A DNA stretch of 64,000 nucleotides from Acidobacteriota bacterium (GTDB taxonomy: Bacteria > Acidobacteriota > Thermoanaerobaculia > Gp7-AA8), in the NCBI GenBank assembly GCA_021325515.1, contig JAJPHC010000037.1, positions 186,001-250,000 of the forward strand, in the 5' to 3' direction. The first letter of the stretch is position 1, and the number at the start of each line of letters is the position of its first letter. Position numbers and translations under genes: made by a program. Of this stretch, positions 35,369-47,255 are shown in pieces. The notes beneath the pieces were generated by a model. The model was not told where the DNA came from. It saw only the letters and a list, made by a program, of their open reading frames with translations, and searched no databases.

Positions 35369-37768
35369 ATGCTTCGTAGTCGCCTTTCCCGCACGCTGGC
35401 GCTGCTCGCCGGCATGGCGGTCACGCTGTACATCCTCGCCAGTCTCTATCTTCCGTCCTCGCGGCGGCTGATCCTCGGTGTCAACAAGCGGAGCGGCGCC
35501 GTGCGTCTCGTGCAGAGCCGCGTCACGTTTCTGCCGCCCTTTCAGTTCTACCGCCTCGTCTTCGATGAGCGCGACGGCTACGCGCAGCACAGCGGAAGCA
35601 TCCGCATCCTTTCGCAGGAAGGGGTGCCGGTCACGATCGGCTATCGGCTGCGATTCACGATCAAGAGCGATCACGTTCCCGACGCGAAGACACTCGTCGA
35701 GAAGGGATGGAGCGCGTGGGTCGGCAAGCGCGTCGCGGAGGCGGTCGATCTCGTAACGCGCCAGGTGCCGATCGAGGATCTGCTGTCGCCGAGCTCGCGC
35801 TTTACGATGCAGCGCGATGTGCTGCGCCGCGCGGTCGCGGCCTATCTGTCGAAGAGCGGGTTGAACGTCACTGCGTTCGAGATCGCACGGCTCGATGTCG
35901 ACAAGGCCGCGCTGCTGCAGCGCAAGAAGGCGGATCTGCGCCGTGAAGCGCGCGGCGTCGCAGGACGCGTCGCGGTCTTCGCGATCGACGGTGCCGACTG
36001 GGAATTGCTCAATGAACTGATCGGCGACGGTCAGTTGCCGAATCTCAAGGCGCTCGCGCGCGGCGGCACGACGGGCACGGTGCAGACGATCGAGCCGATG
36101 GTGTCACCGCTGCTCTGGACGACGGTCGCAACCGGACTGCCGCCCGATCGTCATGGCGTGCTCGATTTCTTTGATCGTGCGCACGCGCCGATCGAATCGT
36201 TCTCGCGGCATGCCCCCGCCGTGTGGGACGTCGCGCAGATGTTCGGACGGCCGGCGACGGTCGTGAACTGGTGGACTGCGTGGCCGGCGTCGGACTCCGG
36301 CGTGACCGTGTTCGATGCTCCGGTCGAACCGCTCGGCAACGCGATCGCGCCGCAGTCACTCGCATCGAAAGTGCAACCGGTCGAAGTGCCGGTGGAGACC
36401 GTCGGCTATCCGCAGGTCCGCAGGTTCATCAACATCACACCCGAGGAATATGCGAAGGCGATCAGCGGACCGGCGTCGGATCCGGTGAACGTCTTTCGCT
36501 CGATGCTCGCGAAAACGTGGACCGATCATCGCGCCGCGATCGAGTTGTACCGGCAGCAGTCGCCTCTGCTCTTCATGATGGAGTACGAGGGGACGGATGC
36601 GGTGAATCATCTGTTCGCGCCGTATCACCCTCCCTACCGCGAAGACGTGAGCCAGGACGGCTATCGCAAGTACTGGCCGGCGGTGACGAACTATTACGCG
36701 GAGATCGACCGGCTCCTCGGCGAGTGGATGTCGGTTCTTCCGCCCGACACGACGGTGATCGTGATGTCGGCACACGGTTTCCGCTGGGGAAAGAACAGGC
36801 CGCATCATCCGCCTCAGAGCGCCGCGCTCTCCGATCATCGCAATCCGGGCGTGTTCATCGCGTATGGCGGACATGTCGCGCGCACCGGCGGAGCGCATTC
36901 GTTTTCGGTGTTCGATCTAACGCCGACGGTGCTCGCGATTCTCGGGCTGCCGCAATCGGCGGAGATGCCGGGGCATGTGGCGACGTGGGCGTTTCGCGAC
37001 ATTCAGCCGGTGGAGACGGTGAAGGTCGTGAGCTACAGCGAGTTTCTCGATCTGAAGCCGGCGCCGGCCGCGGTCCGTCTGGATCCGAAGCCGTATCAGG
37101 AGACGCTGCAGGCGATCGGACATCTTTACGATCCGGGGCGCGCGCTGGTCCCGATGCTCGACGATGCGCCGGAAGCGAACGCGCCGGTGTCACCGCAGCG
37201 CTGGGGTCTCTACGCGTACTTCAACAACCTCGGCATCGAGTTGAGGAAACAGGGAAAGCCGAGCGATGCCATCGATGCATTCGACCGCGCGATCGACATC
37301 AATCCGACGCGTCCGATTCCGTATCTCAATGAGGCGATGACTCTCTTCGACCGCCAGCAGTACACGATGGCGGACGAGATGTTCATCAAGGCGGTGGAGC
37401 GCGGACTGCCGCAGCCTGATCGATGGTTCGTCGATTTCGCGGCGCTCTATCGCGAGAAGAACATGCCGTCGCGCGCGATCGCGCTGCTGTACAAGGGGAA
37501 GGAGCTTTTCCCGCAGTCGTACGTGATCGCCTCGAACCTGGGAGCGACGCTGGTGGCGTCCGATCGCTATACGGAAGGCCTTCCGGAGTTGCAGCGTGCG
37601 CTCGGCATGCAGCCGTCATCGACGCAGGTGCTGAACAACCTGGGAATCTTCTTCGCGAACCGCCACGACTACGCCAGAGCGCTGGACTTCTGGAACCGCT
37701 CGCTGGCGATCGACGGACACCAGCCGGCGATTCACAACGCAGCCGAGGCAGCGCGCACGCGGCTGTGA
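35369..37768 (+). CDS. SPFH-like / alkaline-phosphatase-superfamily / TPR fusion protein
   Basis: 799 aa, single frame. An N-terminal membrane anchor (TLALLAGMAVTLYILASLYLP) is followed by an SPFH/band-7-like part to about residue 195 (RLILGVNKRSGAVR, GVPVTIGYRLRFTIKS, KKADLRREARG). Next comes an AlkP/phosphodiesterase domain (about 200-590): FAIDGADW with a metal Asp, MVSPLLWTT nucleophile region, EYEGTDAVNHLF, and VIVMSAHGFRWG. The C-terminal ~175 residues are TPRs (LGIELRKQGKPSDAIDAFDRAIDINP). The phosphatase domain most likely faces the periplasm or cytoplasm depending on the single anchor; a hydrolase of phospho-glycans or lipids is a guess. The stop lies at the edge of a 9-base repeat array. 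Confidence 0.85.
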   Translation: MLRSRLSRTLALLAGMAVTLYILASLYLPSSRRLILGVNKRSGAVRLVQSRVTFLPPFQFYRLVFDERDGYAQHSGSIRILSQEGVPVTIGYRLRFTIKSDHVPDAKTLVEKGWSAWVGKRVAEAVDLVTRQVPIEDLLSPSSRFTMQRDVLRRAVAAYLSKSGLNVTAFEIARLDVDKAALLQRKKADLRREARGVAGRVAVFAIDGADWELLNELIGDGQLPNLKALARGGTTGTVQTIEPMVSPLLWTTVATGLPPDRHGVLDFFDRAHAPIESFSRHAPAVWDVAQMFGRPATVVNWWTAWPASDSGVTVFDAPVEPLGNAIAPQSLASKVQPVEVPVETVGYPQVRRFINITPEEYAKAISGPASDPVNVFRSMLAKTWTDHRAAIELYRQQSPLLFMMEYEGTDAVNHLFAPYHPPYREDVSQDGYRKYWPAVTNYYAEIDRLLGEWMSVLPPDTTVIVMSAHGFRWGKNRPHHPPQSAALSDHRNPGVFIAYGGHVARTGGAHSFSVFDLTPTVLAILGLPQSAEMPGHVATWAFRDIQPVETVKVVSYSEFLDLKPAPAAVRLDPKPYQETLQAIGHLYDPGRALVPMLDDAPEANAPVSPQRWGLYAYFNNLGIELRKQGKPSDAIDAFDRAIDINPTRPIPYLNEAMTLFDRQQYTMADEMFIKAVERGLPQPDRWFVDFAALYREKNMPSRAIALLYKGKELFPQSYVIASNLGATLVASDRYTEGLPELQRALGMQPSSTQVLNNLGIFFANRHDYARALDFWNRSLAIDGHQPAIHNAAEAARTRL

Positions 37769-37966
37769 GGATGGGAGGATGGGAGGATGGGACGGATGGG
37801 ACCTATGGGACCTATGGGACCTATGGGGAGAAGCGGCCTCCGCCCATAGTCCTATAGGTCTTGGTCCCATTGGTCCCATAGCCCCATTCCCCCTATGGGA
37901 CCAATGGGGAGAAGCGGCCTCCGCCCATAGGTCCTATAGGTCCCATTGGTCCCATAGTCCCATCCA
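37769..37966. repeat. Complex GATGGGAC(C/G)(T/G)-repeat locus with two repeated centres
   Basis: Direct and inverted halves of the 9-base repeat alternate twice around a conserved centre (GAGAAGCGGCCTCCGCC, at about 37834 and 37911). The result is two long hairpins between the AlkP fusion and fur. This ~200-base region has no gene. Confidence 0.85.
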
Positions 37967-38033: not shown

Positions 38034-38048
38034 TGAGACTCAGTCTCA
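38034..38048 (+). promoter_or_regulatory. Fur-box-like operator TGAGACTCAGTCTCA
   Basis: A perfect 15-base inverted repeat (7-1-7) lies 16 bases before the fur ATG. It closely resembles the Fur/PerR 7-1-7 box, so it is probably an autoregulatory site controlling the fur-iron operon. Confidence 0.6.
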
Positions 38049-38064
38049 TTTGTTGTGAGACGAA

Positions 38065-38580
38065 ATGCCACATACCGTGCGCACTGAAAAGGAAATCACC
38101 CGCTTCGCGGGCTTTCTGCAGGATCAGGGGCTCAAGCTCACCACCGAGCGAACCGCGCTCGTCCGTGAGATCTTCGCCACCCACTATCACTTCGAGGCCG
38201 ACGAGCTCCTCTTCAAGATGAAGGAGAAGGGCCTCAAGATCTCCCGCGCGACCGTCTACCGCACGCTCGAGCTCCTCGTGAAGTCCGGCATGGTGCGCCG
38301 CGTCCATCTCGGCGAAGACCACTATCACTACGAGCATGTCACCGGGAACTCGCATCACGATCACCTGATCTGCACGACGTGCGGCTCGGTGATCGAGTTT
38401 CATGATGATGTCCTCGAGCAGCGGCAGCGCGAGATCTGCGAGCGCAAGCGTTTCACTCCCACGTTTCACAACCTGCAGATCCTCGGCCTCTGCGCCGACT
38501 GCAGAAAGAAGGGCGAGCTGCCCGATGCACCGGACCGCGTGAAGATGATCGGCGCCGGCGCGACTCAACTCCGAAAGTAG
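38065..38580 (+). CDS. fur: Fur-family ferric uptake regulator
   Basis: 171 aa metal-responsive repressor. The winged-helix part reads LKLTTERTALVREIFATHYHFEADELLFKMK and ISRATVYRTLELLVKSGMV. The metal region HYHYEHVTGNSHHDHLICTTCG holds the His/Cys sites, with a second C-x2-C (CADC) near the C-terminus. The C-terminal ~25 residues extend beyond the usual ~145. It is the first gene of the iron/flavin operon and is preceded by a Fur-like palindrome, consistent with autoregulation. Whether it senses Fe, Zn or Mn is not settled by sequence. Confidence 0.93.
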   Translation: MPHTVRTEKEITRFAGFLQDQGLKLTTERTALVREIFATHYHFEADELLFKMKEKGLKISRATVYRTLELLVKSGMVRRVHLGEDHYHYEHVTGNSHHDHLICTTCGSVIEFHDDVLEQRQREICERKRFTPTFHNLQILGLCADCRKKGELPDAPDRVKMIGAGATQLRK

Positions 38581-38598
38581 ACAGGAACCCGACTGCCC

Positions 38599-39375
38599 AT
38601 GCTTCCAGCACTCGTCATCGTCTTTCGCGAAGGTTTCGAATCGTTCGTGACCGTTGCCATCATCCTCGCCTATCTGCGCAAGACGGGCCGTGACTGGCTG
38701 CGGCCGGCGGTTTACTGGGGCATCGCTGCCTCGCTGGTCGCGAGCGGCGCTCTCGGCTACGAGCTGAGCAGAGTCAGCGAGCAGTCGCTGTGGGAAGGCA
38801 TCCTCGGTCTCGTCGCCGCGTTCCTCGTCGCCAGCTTCGTCGTGCACGTCTGGCGCACCGCGCCGACGATGAAGCGCGATATGGAAGCGCGGCTCGAAGT
38901 CGCGTCCTCGCGCGATTCGAACCCGCTCGCAGTCATCGGTGTCTTCCTCTTCACGCTGCTGATGGTGACGCGGGAAGGGATGGAAGCCGCGCTGCTCCTC
39001 ATTCAGGTGCGCAGCAATCAGGGAATGCTCATCGGCTCGATCGCAGGTCTGGCCGCCGCAGCGCTGATGTCATGGGCGTGGGCGCACTACGGGCATCGCA
39101 TCAACATCAAGCGATTCTTCCAGGTCACAGGTCTCTTCCTGCTGCTCTTCACGATTCAGATCGTCTTCTACGCCGTTCACGAGCTCTCCGAAGCGAACGT
39201 CCTCGGGCGCTGGAGCGAGGCGATTCACAACGCGACCGAGCCGTACTCGCCGGTGGGCTACTACGGCAAGTGGGTCTCGATCGGTATGCTCGGATTCTGT
39301 GCGGCATGGCTGGCGGTGGTCTCCGTGAAGGACCGTCTTCGATCGCACCAAGAGCTGGCGGTGAAAGTCAGATGA
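38599..39375 (+). CDS. FTR1-family iron permease
   Basis: 258 aa with about seven membrane helices. The two iron-binding REGxE motifs are REGFE (residues 10-14) and REGME (125-129), both required for transport in FTR1/EfeU proteins. A good AGGAA site lies 11 bases before the ATG; the stop overlaps the apbE ATG. FTR1 permeases move ferric iron, classically after a ferroxidase or peroxidase step; here the partners downstream are redox proteins. It follows fur by 18 bases. Confidence 0.93.
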   Translation: MLPALVIVFREGFESFVTVAIILAYLRKTGRDWLRPAVYWGIAASLVASGALGYELSRVSEQSLWEGILGLVAAFLVASFVVHVWRTAPTMKRDMEARLEVASSRDSNPLAVIGVFLFTLLMVTREGMEAALLLIQVRSNQGMLIGSIAGLAAAALMSWAWAHYGHRINIKRFFQVTGLFLLLFTIQIVFYAVHELSEANVLGRWSEAIHNATEPYSPVGYYGKWVSIGMLGFCAAWLAVVSVKDRLRSHQELAVKVR

Positions 39376-40247
39376 CGCGCGCGGCCATCGTCGCCGCGCT
39401 TCTCGCCACGTTTCCCCTGGTTGCCGCAACACGCGCGCAGTACCTCATGGGAACCGTCTGCGAGATCGACGCGGATGTGCCCGCCGAAGCGGCGTTCGCC
39501 GAGACGGCGCGCATCGAGTCGATCGTTTCGACGTGGCGCGACGACAGCGAGCTCTCGCGCGTGAATCGCGGAGAGAAGCCTTCCGAGGAGTTGCATGCGC
39601 TGCTCGCGACCGCGGACTCGTACGTGGCGAGGACAGACGGCGCGTTCAATCCGCACATTCGAACCCTGTTGAACGAATGGGGAATCCGTGATGGTTCCTC
39701 TCGCCCCGCGCCAGCGGGGAGCGGGGCCAGGGGTGAGGGGCAGCCCGACTACGAGGAAGGCGGTTTCGCCAAAGGCTACGCGATCGACCGCATGCTCGAA
39801 ACCCTCGTGAACGAGAATGCGAAGCACGCGATCATCAACTTCGGCGGCCAGCTCGGCACTCTCACGCCGATCACGGCCACGATCGCCAATCCTCAGCATC
39901 GCGACAAGCCGGTCCTCGAGCTGAGACTCGAAAAGCGCTCGCTCTCCACCAGCTCCGGCTCGGAGAAAACCTTTGAGCGGAACGGCCGCGTTTACTGCCA
40001 CATCGTTGATCCACGCACGCGCGAGGCGCTTCCGCCGCGTGGCAGCGTCTCCGTCATCAGCGACTCGGCACTCGAAGCCGACATTCTCTCCACCGCGCTG
40101 TACGTGATGGGGCCGGAGCAGGGGCTCGCGTGGGCCCGCGCACACCGCGTCACGGCGATCTTCATCGACAACGGTTTCATCACAGCGTCCACCTCGATTC
40201 CCGGGATCAGGGTGCTCGACGCGCATTTCAGAATCAGGGAGCAGTGA
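39372..40247 (+). CDS. apbE: FAD:protein FMN transferase ApbE (with internal repeat element)
   Basis: 291 aa exported flavin transferase that attaches FMN to Thr of target proteins. Signal peptide MTRAAIVAALLATFPLVAA, then QYLMGTVCEI, AKGYAIDRML, IINFGGQLGTL, CHIVDPRT and the Mg/FAD-binding SALEADILSTALYVMGPEQGL of the family. Between WGIRDG and YEEGGFAKGY lies a stretch encoded by the GC-rich element (SSRPAPAGSGARGEGQ). This region is several tens of residues shorter than in typical ApbE. Core motifs on both sides are kept, so activity is plausible but uncertain. Overlaps FTR1 by 4 bases; the porin gene begins right after its stop. Confidence 0.9.
   Translation: MTRAAIVAALLATFPLVAATRAQYLMGTVCEIDADVPAEAAFAETARIESIVSTWRDDSELSRVNRGEKPSEELHALLATADSYVARTDGAFNPHIRTLLNEWGIRDGSSRPAPAGSGARGEGQPDYEEGGFAKGYAIDRMLETLVNENAKHAIINFGGQLGTLTPITATIANPQHRDKPVLELRLEKRSLSTSSGSEKTFERNGRVYCHIVDPRTREALPPRGSVSVISDSALEADILSTALYVMGPEQGLAWARAHRVTAIFIDNGFITASTSIPGIRVLDAHFRIREQ
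39697..39740. repeat. GC-rich palindromic element (copy 2) inside apbE
   Basis: Copy of the element at 10697-10740, with CCCCGC-GCCA-GCGGGG and GGGGTGAGGGG, here inside a reading frame and read as protein without a stop. It replaces a variable surface segment of ApbE. Confidence 0.75.
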
Positions 40248-41552
40248 ATGGTTAGACGACTTATGGTTCTTCTTTCGGCGATGCTCATCGCCTCGCCATC
40301 GTTTGCACAATCGGCTCAGGATCTCGAGCAGCGCCTCAAGGAGCTGCAGGCAAAACTCTCCGCCATCGACGAGATGAAGCGCGAGATCGACATCCTCACG
40401 CAGGAAATCGAAACGCTGAAGAGCGGCGCGACGAAGAAAGCCGTTGAGGCCGATCAGGCGCAGTACGGCATGGGCGCCGCCGCCTCGAAAGTGTATCGCA
40501 CGGATGCGGGAGTCTCGATCGGCGGCTACGGCGAGTTCGCGTACGACAATCCCCGGCATGACATCGCGCGCGCCGACCTGCTGCGCGGCGTGCTCTACAC
40601 CGGCTACAAGTTCTCGCCGCGCGTTCTCTTCAACTCCGAGCTCGAAGTCGAGCACGGAACGACCGAGAACAAAGGCGGCGATGGCGCCGAAGGAGGCGCG
40701 GTCGGACTCGAGTTCGCGTATCTCGATTATCTGATCCGGCCCGAGGCGAATGTGCGTGCCGGCGTCATGCTGATGCCGGTGGGTCTCATCAACGAGCAGC
40801 ACGAGCCGACCGCCTACTTCGGCGTCCACCGGCCGCTCGTCGAAGACGCGATCATCCCGACGACGTGGAGCGAGATGGGCGCGGGCATCTTCGGCGACAA
40901 GGGAGCGCTCACCTATCGCGCCTACGTGACGACAGGGCTCGACTCGTCGCGCTTCGAGAGTGAGTCTGGCATTCACGAAGGGAAGCAGAGCGGCGCGTCG
41001 GCGAAGGCGGAGGATCTCGCGATCGTGGCGCGCGCCGACTGGCATCCGTTCGAGGGCACGATGTTCGGCGGCTCGATTTACAACGGCGGCTCGGGGCAGG
41101 GCGCACGTACGGAAGACGGCCAGCGAATCAAAGGGCGTGTGCGTCTCGCCGAAGTCCACGCCGACTCGAAGTTCCGCGGTGCGTCGCTCCGCGCACTCTT
41201 CGCGCGCGGCTCCATCGGCGACGCCGCCCTCATCAACGAGCGGAACGGGCTCGAGGGCGACGAGAGCATCGGCAAGTCGTTCGGCGGCTGGTACCTCGAG
41301 GGCGGCTACGATCTCGCGTCGCGCGCGAACATCTCGATCACGCCGTACGTTCGCTACGAGCGCCTCGACACGCAGCGCAGCGTTCCGGCCGGATTCGAGC
41401 GCAATCCCGAGAACAACCAGCGCATCTTCACCGCAGGCTTCGCGTTCAAGCCGATCTCGCAGACCGTCGTGAAGATCGACTGGCAGCGCGCGAAGAATCA
41501 GGCGCACACCGGAGACAACAGATGGAACATCGGCCTCGGCTACATCTTCTGA
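40248..41552 (+). CDS. Porin-like outer membrane protein with coiled-coil
   Basis: 434 aa. Signal peptide (MLIASPSFAQ), then a coiled-coil of about 50 residues (QDLEQRLKELQAKLSAIDEMKREIDILTQ), then a long β-rich barrel region (GVSIGGYGEFAY, LLRGVLYTGYKFSPRVLFNSELEVEH, PVGLINEQHEP, LEGGYDLASRANISITPYVRYERL) ending in Phe (GLGYIF), as in outer-membrane barrels. This plan matches phosphate-selective OprP/O-type or similar porins whose N-terminal helix is periplasmic. It starts directly after apbE. It may bring iron or a small complex into the periplasm. Confidence 0.85.
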   Translation: MVRRLMVLLSAMLIASPSFAQSAQDLEQRLKELQAKLSAIDEMKREIDILTQEIETLKSGATKKAVEADQAQYGMGAAASKVYRTDAGVSIGGYGEFAYDNPRHDIARADLLRGVLYTGYKFSPRVLFNSELEVEHGTTENKGGDGAEGGAVGLEFAYLDYLIRPEANVRAGVMLMPVGLINEQHEPTAYFGVHRPLVEDAIIPTTWSEMGAGIFGDKGALTYRAYVTTGLDSSRFESESGIHEGKQSGASAKAEDLAIVARADWHPFEGTMFGGSIYNGGSGQGARTEDGQRIKGRVRLAEVHADSKFRGASLRALFARGSIGDAALINERNGLEGDESIGKSFGGWYLEGGYDLASRANISITPYVRYERLDTQRSVPAGFERNPENNQRIFTAGFAFKPISQTVVKIDWQRAKNQAHTGDNRWNIGLGYIF

Positions 41553-42052
41553 TCGCGCTGTCGGCCGCGTTGGCGTTCCGGCTCAACGCGCGAGTTCTGA
41601 TGACGCAGGACCAGGCGCTGGCCAGCGCGTTTCCGAACGCGAAGCCGGCGCGCCAGACGTTCTTTCTCACGAAACAGCAGCTCGACGCCGCTCGCCAGGA
41701 GAGCGGCGTCGACTTCCGGGAACAGCTCGTGATCCGGTACGCGACTCCCGCCGGCTTCGCCTACTTCGATTCGCATCGGGTCCGGACGCTGCCGGAAACG
41801 GTGATGATCGTCGTGACGCCGGATGGGAAGGTGGCGCGTGTCGAGATTCTCTCGTTCGACGAGCCGACCGACTATTTCCCGAAGCGCCGGTGGCTCGACC
41901 AGCTCCTCGGCCGTCATCTCGACGCGGATCTGTCGCTGAAAGGCGCGGTCCGTCCGATCTCCGGCGCGAGTCTCACGGGTCAGGCCATTGTGAACGCAAC
42001 GCGCAAGGTGCTGGCGCTCCATCACGTGCTGGCAGGAGTGGCGCCGAAATGA
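41522..42052 (+). CDS. Exported FMN-binding (FMN_bind) protein
   Basis: 176 aa. A hydrophobic N-terminus (LHLLIALSAALAF) suggests export or anchoring. The FMN_bind domain has IVVTPDGKVARVEILSFDEPTDYF and the flavinylation motif SGASLT (residues 147-152), whose Thr152 is expected to receive FMN from ApbE. Thus the substrate of apbE lies two genes downstream. The start at 41522 overlaps the porin by 31 bases and has GGAGA 8 bases upstream. Similar domains carry electrons in RnfG/NqrC and in extracytosolic respiratory systems. Confidence 0.9.
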   Translation: MEHRPRLHLLIALSAALAFRLNARVLMTQDQALASAFPNAKPARQTFFLTKQQLDAARQESGVDFREQLVIRYATPAGFAYFDSHRVRTLPETVMIVVTPDGKVARVEILSFDEPTDYFPKRRWLDQLLGRHLDADLSLKGAVRPISGASLTGQAIVNATRKVLALHHVLAGVAPK

Positions 42053-42516
42053 TGTCGCGGGCGCAGGTCGTCTACCTTCAGCTCTGCGTGCTGGTCACGA
42101 CGCTCACCGGCGCGGTGTTCGCGGTGATGAAGTACGCGATGAAGAGCAGCGACCCGTTCGCGGTGGCTAACCATCCGTTGCAGCCGTACATGTTGTCCGC
42201 CCATGTGCTCGTCGCTCCCCTGCTGGTCTTCGGTTTCGGCTGGGTATTCGCGAATCACATCTGGCCGGGATTCGCCAGCGGCATTGCGCGCAAGCGGAAG
42301 AGCGGGCTCTGGTCGATGGCTGCGATCGTGCCGATGGTGCTCAGCGGCTATCTGCTGCAGGTGTCGACCGCCGATGCCACACGCCAGGCGATGGCGATTG
42401 CGCACTGGGTGTCATCCGCGCTGTTCGCCGGCGGGTATGTGATCCACCTCGTGACGAAGAAGGCGGCGCGGGCCTCACGCCAGCCGTCGCCGAGCGCTCC
42501 GCTCGACGACGTTTGA
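42049..42516 (+). CDS. Four-helix membrane protein with paired histidines (cytochrome b-like)
   Basis: 155 aa, four hydrophobic helices. His52 and His70 in helix 2 (SAHVLVAPLLVFGFGWVFANH) and His119 and His133 in helix 4 (AHWVSSALFAGGYVIH) form the spacing expected for two haem groups, as in DUF4405-type or ferric-reductase-like cytochromes b. No CxxCH. It overlaps the FMN_bind gene by 4 bases. I infer it passes electrons across the inner membrane to the flavinylated protein; the haem assignment is not proven by sequence. Confidence 0.75.
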   Translation: MMSRAQVVYLQLCVLVTTLTGAVFAVMKYAMKSSDPFAVANHPLQPYMLSAHVLVAPLLVFGFGWVFANHIWPGFASGIARKRKSGLWSMAAIVPMVLSGYLLQVSTADATRQAMAIAHWVSSALFAGGYVIHLVTKKAARASRQPSPSAPLDDV

Positions 42517-47156: not shown

Positions 47157-47255
47157 GACGATGGGACCTATAGGACCTATGGGACCTATAGGCAGATGGT
47201 CCCGCCCATTGGTCCCATAGGTCCTATAGGTCCCATACGTCCCATCCTCCCATCA
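47144..47255. repeat. Palindromic pair of GATGGGACCTATA-type arrays
   Basis: Direct and inverted halves of the 9-base repeat, around a centre near GCAGATGGTCCCGCCC, fill the gap between the convergent anti-sigma and fabI genes. Both genes' stop codons are within the array edges (GGATAG and TGATGGGAG). Possible bidirectional terminator or recombination site. Confidence 0.85.

Follow-up and report, generated by a model that had tools for sequence, protein, structure and literature searches.

Does the compact operon on the plus strand at positions 38065-42516 of the window (the whole 64,000-nucleotide stretch of an Acidobacteriota genome analysed here) encode an iron-uptake version of extracytosolic flavin electron transfer, as an earlier note had proposed from the sequence alone, and which of its genes form the conserved unit? 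ORF calls gave the order fur, FTR1, apbE, porin, FMN_bind and a gene for a four-helix membrane (4TM) protein, all on the plus strand. The first encodes a 171-aa Fur family regulator (38065-38580; Pfam FUR, 8.7e-33) and the second a 258-aa FTR1 family iron permease (38599-39375; Pfam FTR1, 3.6e-28), in which both of the REGxE motifs claimed earlier are present as REGFE and REGME. They are followed by apbE for a 291-aa FAD:protein FMN transferase with a signal-peptide-like N terminus (39372-40247; Pfam ApbE, 4.2e-50), the gene for a 434-aa outer-membrane porin (40248-41552), the FMN_bind gene for a 176-aa predicted periplasmic flavoprotein (41522-42052) and the gene for the 155-aa 4TM protein (42049-42516). 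The genes had been described as contiguous, and the ORF coordinates bear out their order and overlaps, except for an 18-base gap between fur and FTR1; the remaining junctions are, in gene order, a 4-base overlap, abutting ends, a 31-base overlap and a 4-base overlap. Position 38034, given earlier as the start of the locus, turned out to be the first base of a perfect Fur-box-like 7-1-7 palindrome, TGAGACTCAGTCTCA (38034-38048, no strand assigned), 31 bases 5' of the fur start codon.

The conserved unit is a four-gene cassette, apbE-porin-FMN_bind-4TM, with FTR1 as an optional partner. In the neighbourhoods of relatives this order is kept across families, and fur and FTR1 come and go. The earlier note had read the six genes as one system; the four-gene part of it does recur, but the whole operon was ruled out as the conserved unit because FTR1 is optional across both the neighbourhoods and the sister genomes. 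Two peptide patterns, applied to about 85,000 species genomes, recovered 165 FMN_bind relatives in about a dozen phyla, a number that is a lower bound because the search used two patterns only. Eighty loci were fetched, labelled as Acidobacteriota, Gemmatimonadota, Planctomycetota, Elusimicrobiota, Myxococcota, Verrucomicrobiota, Kiritimatiellota, Zixibacteria, Bdellovibrionota, Leptospiraceae, Aquificota and a gammaproteobacterial bin, although single assignments may be wrong as nearly all carriers are metagenome bins. The same core was present in most of the fetched loci, and the porin is an integral part of it.

Several loci show variations on this arrangement. In the Holophagales locus L035 and its relatives, a 134-aa protein with no Pfam match (7482-7883 in L035) precedes the porin, and apbE lies elsewhere in the genome. 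Another membrane protein, in which His residues are conserved, takes the place of the 4TM protein at L043:5329-5865, L049:9837-10379, L136, L094, L077, L085, L125 and L130, and in the Aquificaceae loci among L165-L184 this replacement appears to be duplicated within one chain. Some Aquificaceae (L165:6381-8072, L169, L172, L167 and L184) have, directly after the porin and often before FMN_bind, a protein some 510-570 aa long in which the CxxCH motif occurs twice; the one member scanned gave no Pfam family.

The window's own family illustrates how the cassette and the iron permease are combined. Ten sister genomes (L137-L140, L142 and L145-L149) have fur and FTR1 side by side with no cassette, nine of them with a Fur-box-like site before fur, and in most of the ten the visible contig flanks are the same as in the window, namely a phosphodiesterase/TPR gene and gltX. 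The cassette of the window is thus the block between FTR1 and gltX; in another genome, G002, one other gene lies between the cassette block and gltX. Two further members of the family, G003 and G012, carry the cassette at another place, and FTR1 was not found in them. In the FMN_bind tree, the proteins of the window, G002 and G003 group as one clade (support 100/91), and the FTR1 and Fur trees did not distinguish gain of the cassette in this family from its loss. Those sister genomes that have fur-FTR1 but lack the cassette offer a natural comparison. The large protein kept upstream of fur-FTR1 in this family (35369-37768 in the window) contains phosphodiesterase and TPR domains and matches band-7 weakly. 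A 9-base repeat, ATGGGACCT, is clustered together with its complement, in both orientations, between genes at 37767-37963 and 47167-47239, with 13 matches to an 11-mer where 0.3 are expected.

The flavoprotein of the window matched Pfam FMN_bind at 2.6e-5, above the gathering score, and a profile of 66 family sequences matched RnfG (8.5e-7), the flavin sites of the two falling in register. In the published flavinylation motif, D-x-x-[ST]-G-A-[ST], FMN is carried by the residue right after GA (PMC12052999). This residue, position 150, is Thr or Ser in all 66 homologues (Thr in 58 of them) and Ser in the window, where the site reads SGAS. The SGASLT stretch pointed out in the earlier note is indeed there, but judging from the published motif and the 66-sequence alignment the flavin acceptor in the window is likely Ser150 (codon at 41969-41971, plus strand), not Thr152 as had been suggested. 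The Asp of the canonical motif is absent, its place three residues before the first Ser/Thr being taken by Arg144 in the window; since an Asp-to-Ala change had only a minor effect (PMC12052999), this Asp is not defining in practice. The alignment also contains a family motif, DxHxVRT (residues 83-89), of which D83, H85, V87 and R88 are invariant and which could bind iron or the cytochrome.

In the window genome, which is 99.8% complete, the sole genes for ApbE, FMN_bind and FTR1 all lie in this operon. A genome search detected the FMN_bind protein in 29 of 60 relatives, and ApbE was found in every one of these 29 as opposed to 10 of the 31 relatives lacking the flavoprotein. ApbE was likewise present in 29 of 30 genomes of other lineages and missing only from a small Aquificaceae bin. 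The window's apbE contains, in frame, a dispersed GC-rich repeat (about 39700-39742, plus strand), recognized by alignment and by its copy number: a 25-mer core occurs at 36 places in the genome with two mismatches or fewer. The repeat encodes about 19 residues in place of about 35 amino acids in the relatives, and its presence means that flavinylation in the window genome may be impaired. The halves of ApbE flanking the repeat still align with solved ApbE structures.

Neither the porin nor the 4TM protein gave a significant match in the Pfam scan, and as their profiles had no useful sequence match to solved structures, we turned to predicted folds. The 4TM model (pLDDT 94.5) comprises helices at residues 3-29, 44-76, 82-104 and 108-142. 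His52, His70, His119 and His133 stand exactly where the earlier note had placed them, on helices 2 and 4, are predicted to pair as His52/His119 and His70/His133, and are invariant in 55 of 55 homologues. The best structural matches of the model were CybB, HyaC, FdnI, cytochrome b6 and designed di-haem bundles, led by 5oc0 (Z 11.4) and 4gd3 (Z 11.3), although helical bundles reach such values by common arrangement and a Z of about 11 is not by itself proof of a di-haem fold. Foldseek alone returned no significant match for the model, and the 4TM profile had no detectable match among PDB sequences. DUF4405 (PF14358) was matched by two of the 55 family members (best E 0.0043), the window protein not among them. 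On the basis of the invariant His residues and the model, the protein resembles a di-haem b cytochrome and we treat it as a predicted one. The loop that joins helices 2 and 3 is rich in Arg, which suggests that the His52/His119 pair lies near the periplasm.

The AlphaFold model of the porin (pLDDT 89.7) is a beta-barrel with an N-terminal coiled coil, and is closest to OprO and OprP (Z 26.7). Among 59 porin homologues, nine had a Porin_O_P match. The porin profile matched 42 of 61 Aquificaceae genomes, in which FMN_bind often comes after the porin. A Fur-controlled porin of Geobacter and Desulfuromonas, psp, with a homologue in Aquifex aeolicus, is described in Rodionov 2004 (PMC545781). Judging by its description and features, psp may be the same porin as that of the cassette.

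We then asked how often the cassette is accompanied by signs of iron regulation and transport. Matches to the 7-1-7 consensus TGAKAATNATTMTCA with at most three mismatches were sought within 250 bases upstream, and such boxes were found before 35 of 60 non-redundant cassette operons versus 5 of the 476 other genes in these loci (Fisher p 2.6e-33); the consensus was fixed after a first look at the regions, which makes the comparison mildly circular, and its form is the classical 7-1-7. Palindromes with permuted arms hit on average 1.4 of the 60 operons, one near-identical permutation reaching 35 and the others 15 or fewer. By the same measure of three mismatches, 25 of the 60 operons have no box, including those of the Holophagales lineage with apbE elsewhere. 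The predicted boxes thus point to a cassette that is often under Fur control.

As for transporters, called by Pfam or by profiles built in this analysis, FTR1 was present in seven of 66 non-redundant loci (the window, L057, L065, L072, L125, L136 and, convergently oriented, L117) and FeoB in six (L060, L067, L088, L102, L113 and L135), where fewer than one such neighbour would be expected by chance according to a rough estimate. In the FMN_bind tree the FTR1 and FeoB loci occupy separate branches, and several of them also have Fur or DtxR regulators. At the other 53 loci, neither FTR1 nor FeoB was found within the examined stretch; the window genome has a separate FeoB on another contig. One locus, L072, combines the cassette with an FTR1-FtrD fusion, MacB-type permeases and a DtxR-like regulator, and is a bridge to P19-type systems.

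We consider it probable, at roughly 70%, that the cassette is a ferric reductase of the periplasm, induced through Fur, which supplies FTR1 or FeoB. The iron-uptake reading put forward in the earlier note is thereby supported, by the Fur boxes, the FTR1 and FeoB neighbours, the invariant His residues, the co-occurrence of ApbE and the absence of EfeO and P19. At low iron, Fur would leave the putative box at 38034-38048, and the OprO/OprP-like porin would admit ferric iron or small ferric chelates to the periplasm. The 4TM protein, holding two b haems, one at His52/His119 near the periplasm and the other at His70/His133 near the cytoplasm, would pass electrons across the membrane, probably from quinol, as its invariant His residues, fold and charge pattern lead us to infer. 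ApbE would load the FMN_bind protein with FMN, Ser150 being the most likely site, the flavoprotein would hand the electrons to ferric iron, and the ferrous product would be imported by FTR1 here or by FeoB elsewhere. It is attractive to speculate, tentatively, that the cassette is a general, modular form of reductive iron uptake in diderms, which comes with a porin, a flavoprotein and a minimal di-haem cytochrome of its own, plugs into FTR1 or FeoB, and relies on cooperation between the porin and the flavoprotein.

Fur control fits any low-iron response, and an adjacent iron transporter is missing at most loci. Both observations are also compatible with a low-iron bypass, in which a flavin carrier takes over from iron-rich c-type cytochromes and supplies a different reductase of the periplasm, with iron uptake as a mere neighbour function. 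We regard this as unlikely, as the porin is constant in the cassette, FTR1 or FeoB neighbours recur in unrelated lineages, the module still seems to require two haems, and no constantly linked periplasmic reductase was seen. Quite unlikely is a ferric-chelate (siderophore) reductase, a sub-case of the ferric reductase reading with a different substrate, in which the flavoprotein strips iron from chelates that have entered the periplasm, as in PepSY-like systems. Fur control, the presence of a porin and the analogy with the PepSY systems (PMC8238504) agree with it; nevertheless, we noticed no constantly linked TonB receptor in a non-exhaustive annotation of neighbours, and a pore of the OprO/OprP type is probably too small for most siderophores. 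A trans-envelope conduit, in which a complex of porin, flavoprotein and cytochrome delivers electrons to iron at the outer membrane or beyond it, is very improbable, for although a porin constantly accompanies the flavoprotein and some Aquificaceae insert the two-CxxCH protein between them, the window offers one flavin and no c-haem protein, and a multihaem protein was not noticed at most loci.

Parts of this picture are already in print. A 2021 study found flavinylation in the vicinity of iron transporters, P19-FTR1 clusters with FMN_bind among them (Meheust 2021, PMC8238504); its main text makes no mention of porins, Acidobacteria or Gemmatimonadota. The FMN-binding proteins of P19-FTR1 clusters have been proposed as a source of reducing power (Liu 2018, PMC6083913). 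The link between flavinylation and iron and the Fur-controlled psp porins are thus published, whereas no prior description of the four-gene cassette was found in the texts of the open-access papers searched. Ferric iron reduction and import are poorly known in most Gram-negative lineages outside Proteobacteria. The cassette, compact and often preceded by a Fur box, occurs in Acidobacteriota, Gemmatimonadota, Planctomycetota and Aquificota, among others, and is a testable candidate; it also suggests what psp-like porins may do and which reductase may serve FTR1 as well as FeoB. Two established memberships were considered for the window and rejected: the P19-FTR1 systems, since P19 (PF10634) is absent from the window genome, and EfeUOB, since EfeO (Peptidase_M75) is absent from it, which agrees with the earlier view that the operon is not of the usual EfeUOB type.

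Comparison with known systems places the cassette among several of them. The operon of the window shares the FTR1/EfeU-type permease with EfeUOB, from which it differs by its reductive partner genes and by the lack of EfeO in the genome. The flavoprotein of the cassette has the FMN_bind domain and the [ST]GA[ST] site of RnfG and NqrC, but stands alone and carries DxHxVRT, absent from the RnfG sequence compared. In its model the 4TM protein resembles CybB, a superoxide oxidase, and other four-helix b cytochromes with two haems, and it has conserved His on helices 2 and 4 as they do; it differs from CybB-type cytochromes in having no detectable sequence match in the PDB and a flavoprotein as partner. 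Like the cassette porin, psp is a PF07396-like porin behind Fur boxes with an Aquifex homologue, and the passages on it (PMC545781) present it as hypothetical, with a possible role for ferrous iron, and show no flavoprotein or cytochrome partner. In the P19-FTR1-FMN_bind clusters, too, FTR1 adjoins an FMN-binding protein for which reduction of ferric iron has been proposed, and in Campylobacter a Fur box lies upstream, as it often does at the cassette, which adds the porin, apbE and the four-helix cytochrome and, except at L072, has no MacB-type permeases. With the flavinylation-based transmembrane electron transfer systems of the MsrQ-like, PepSY-like and DUF4405 types (PMC8238504, PMC10979944), the cassette shares ApbE, a predicted flavinylated extracytosolic protein and a predicted membrane cytochrome with His ligands. 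Those systems are linked to iron through VIT1, whereas the cassette has a shorter 4TM protein with no clear match to their Pfam families, a dedicated porin, and FTR1 or FeoB in the place of VIT1.
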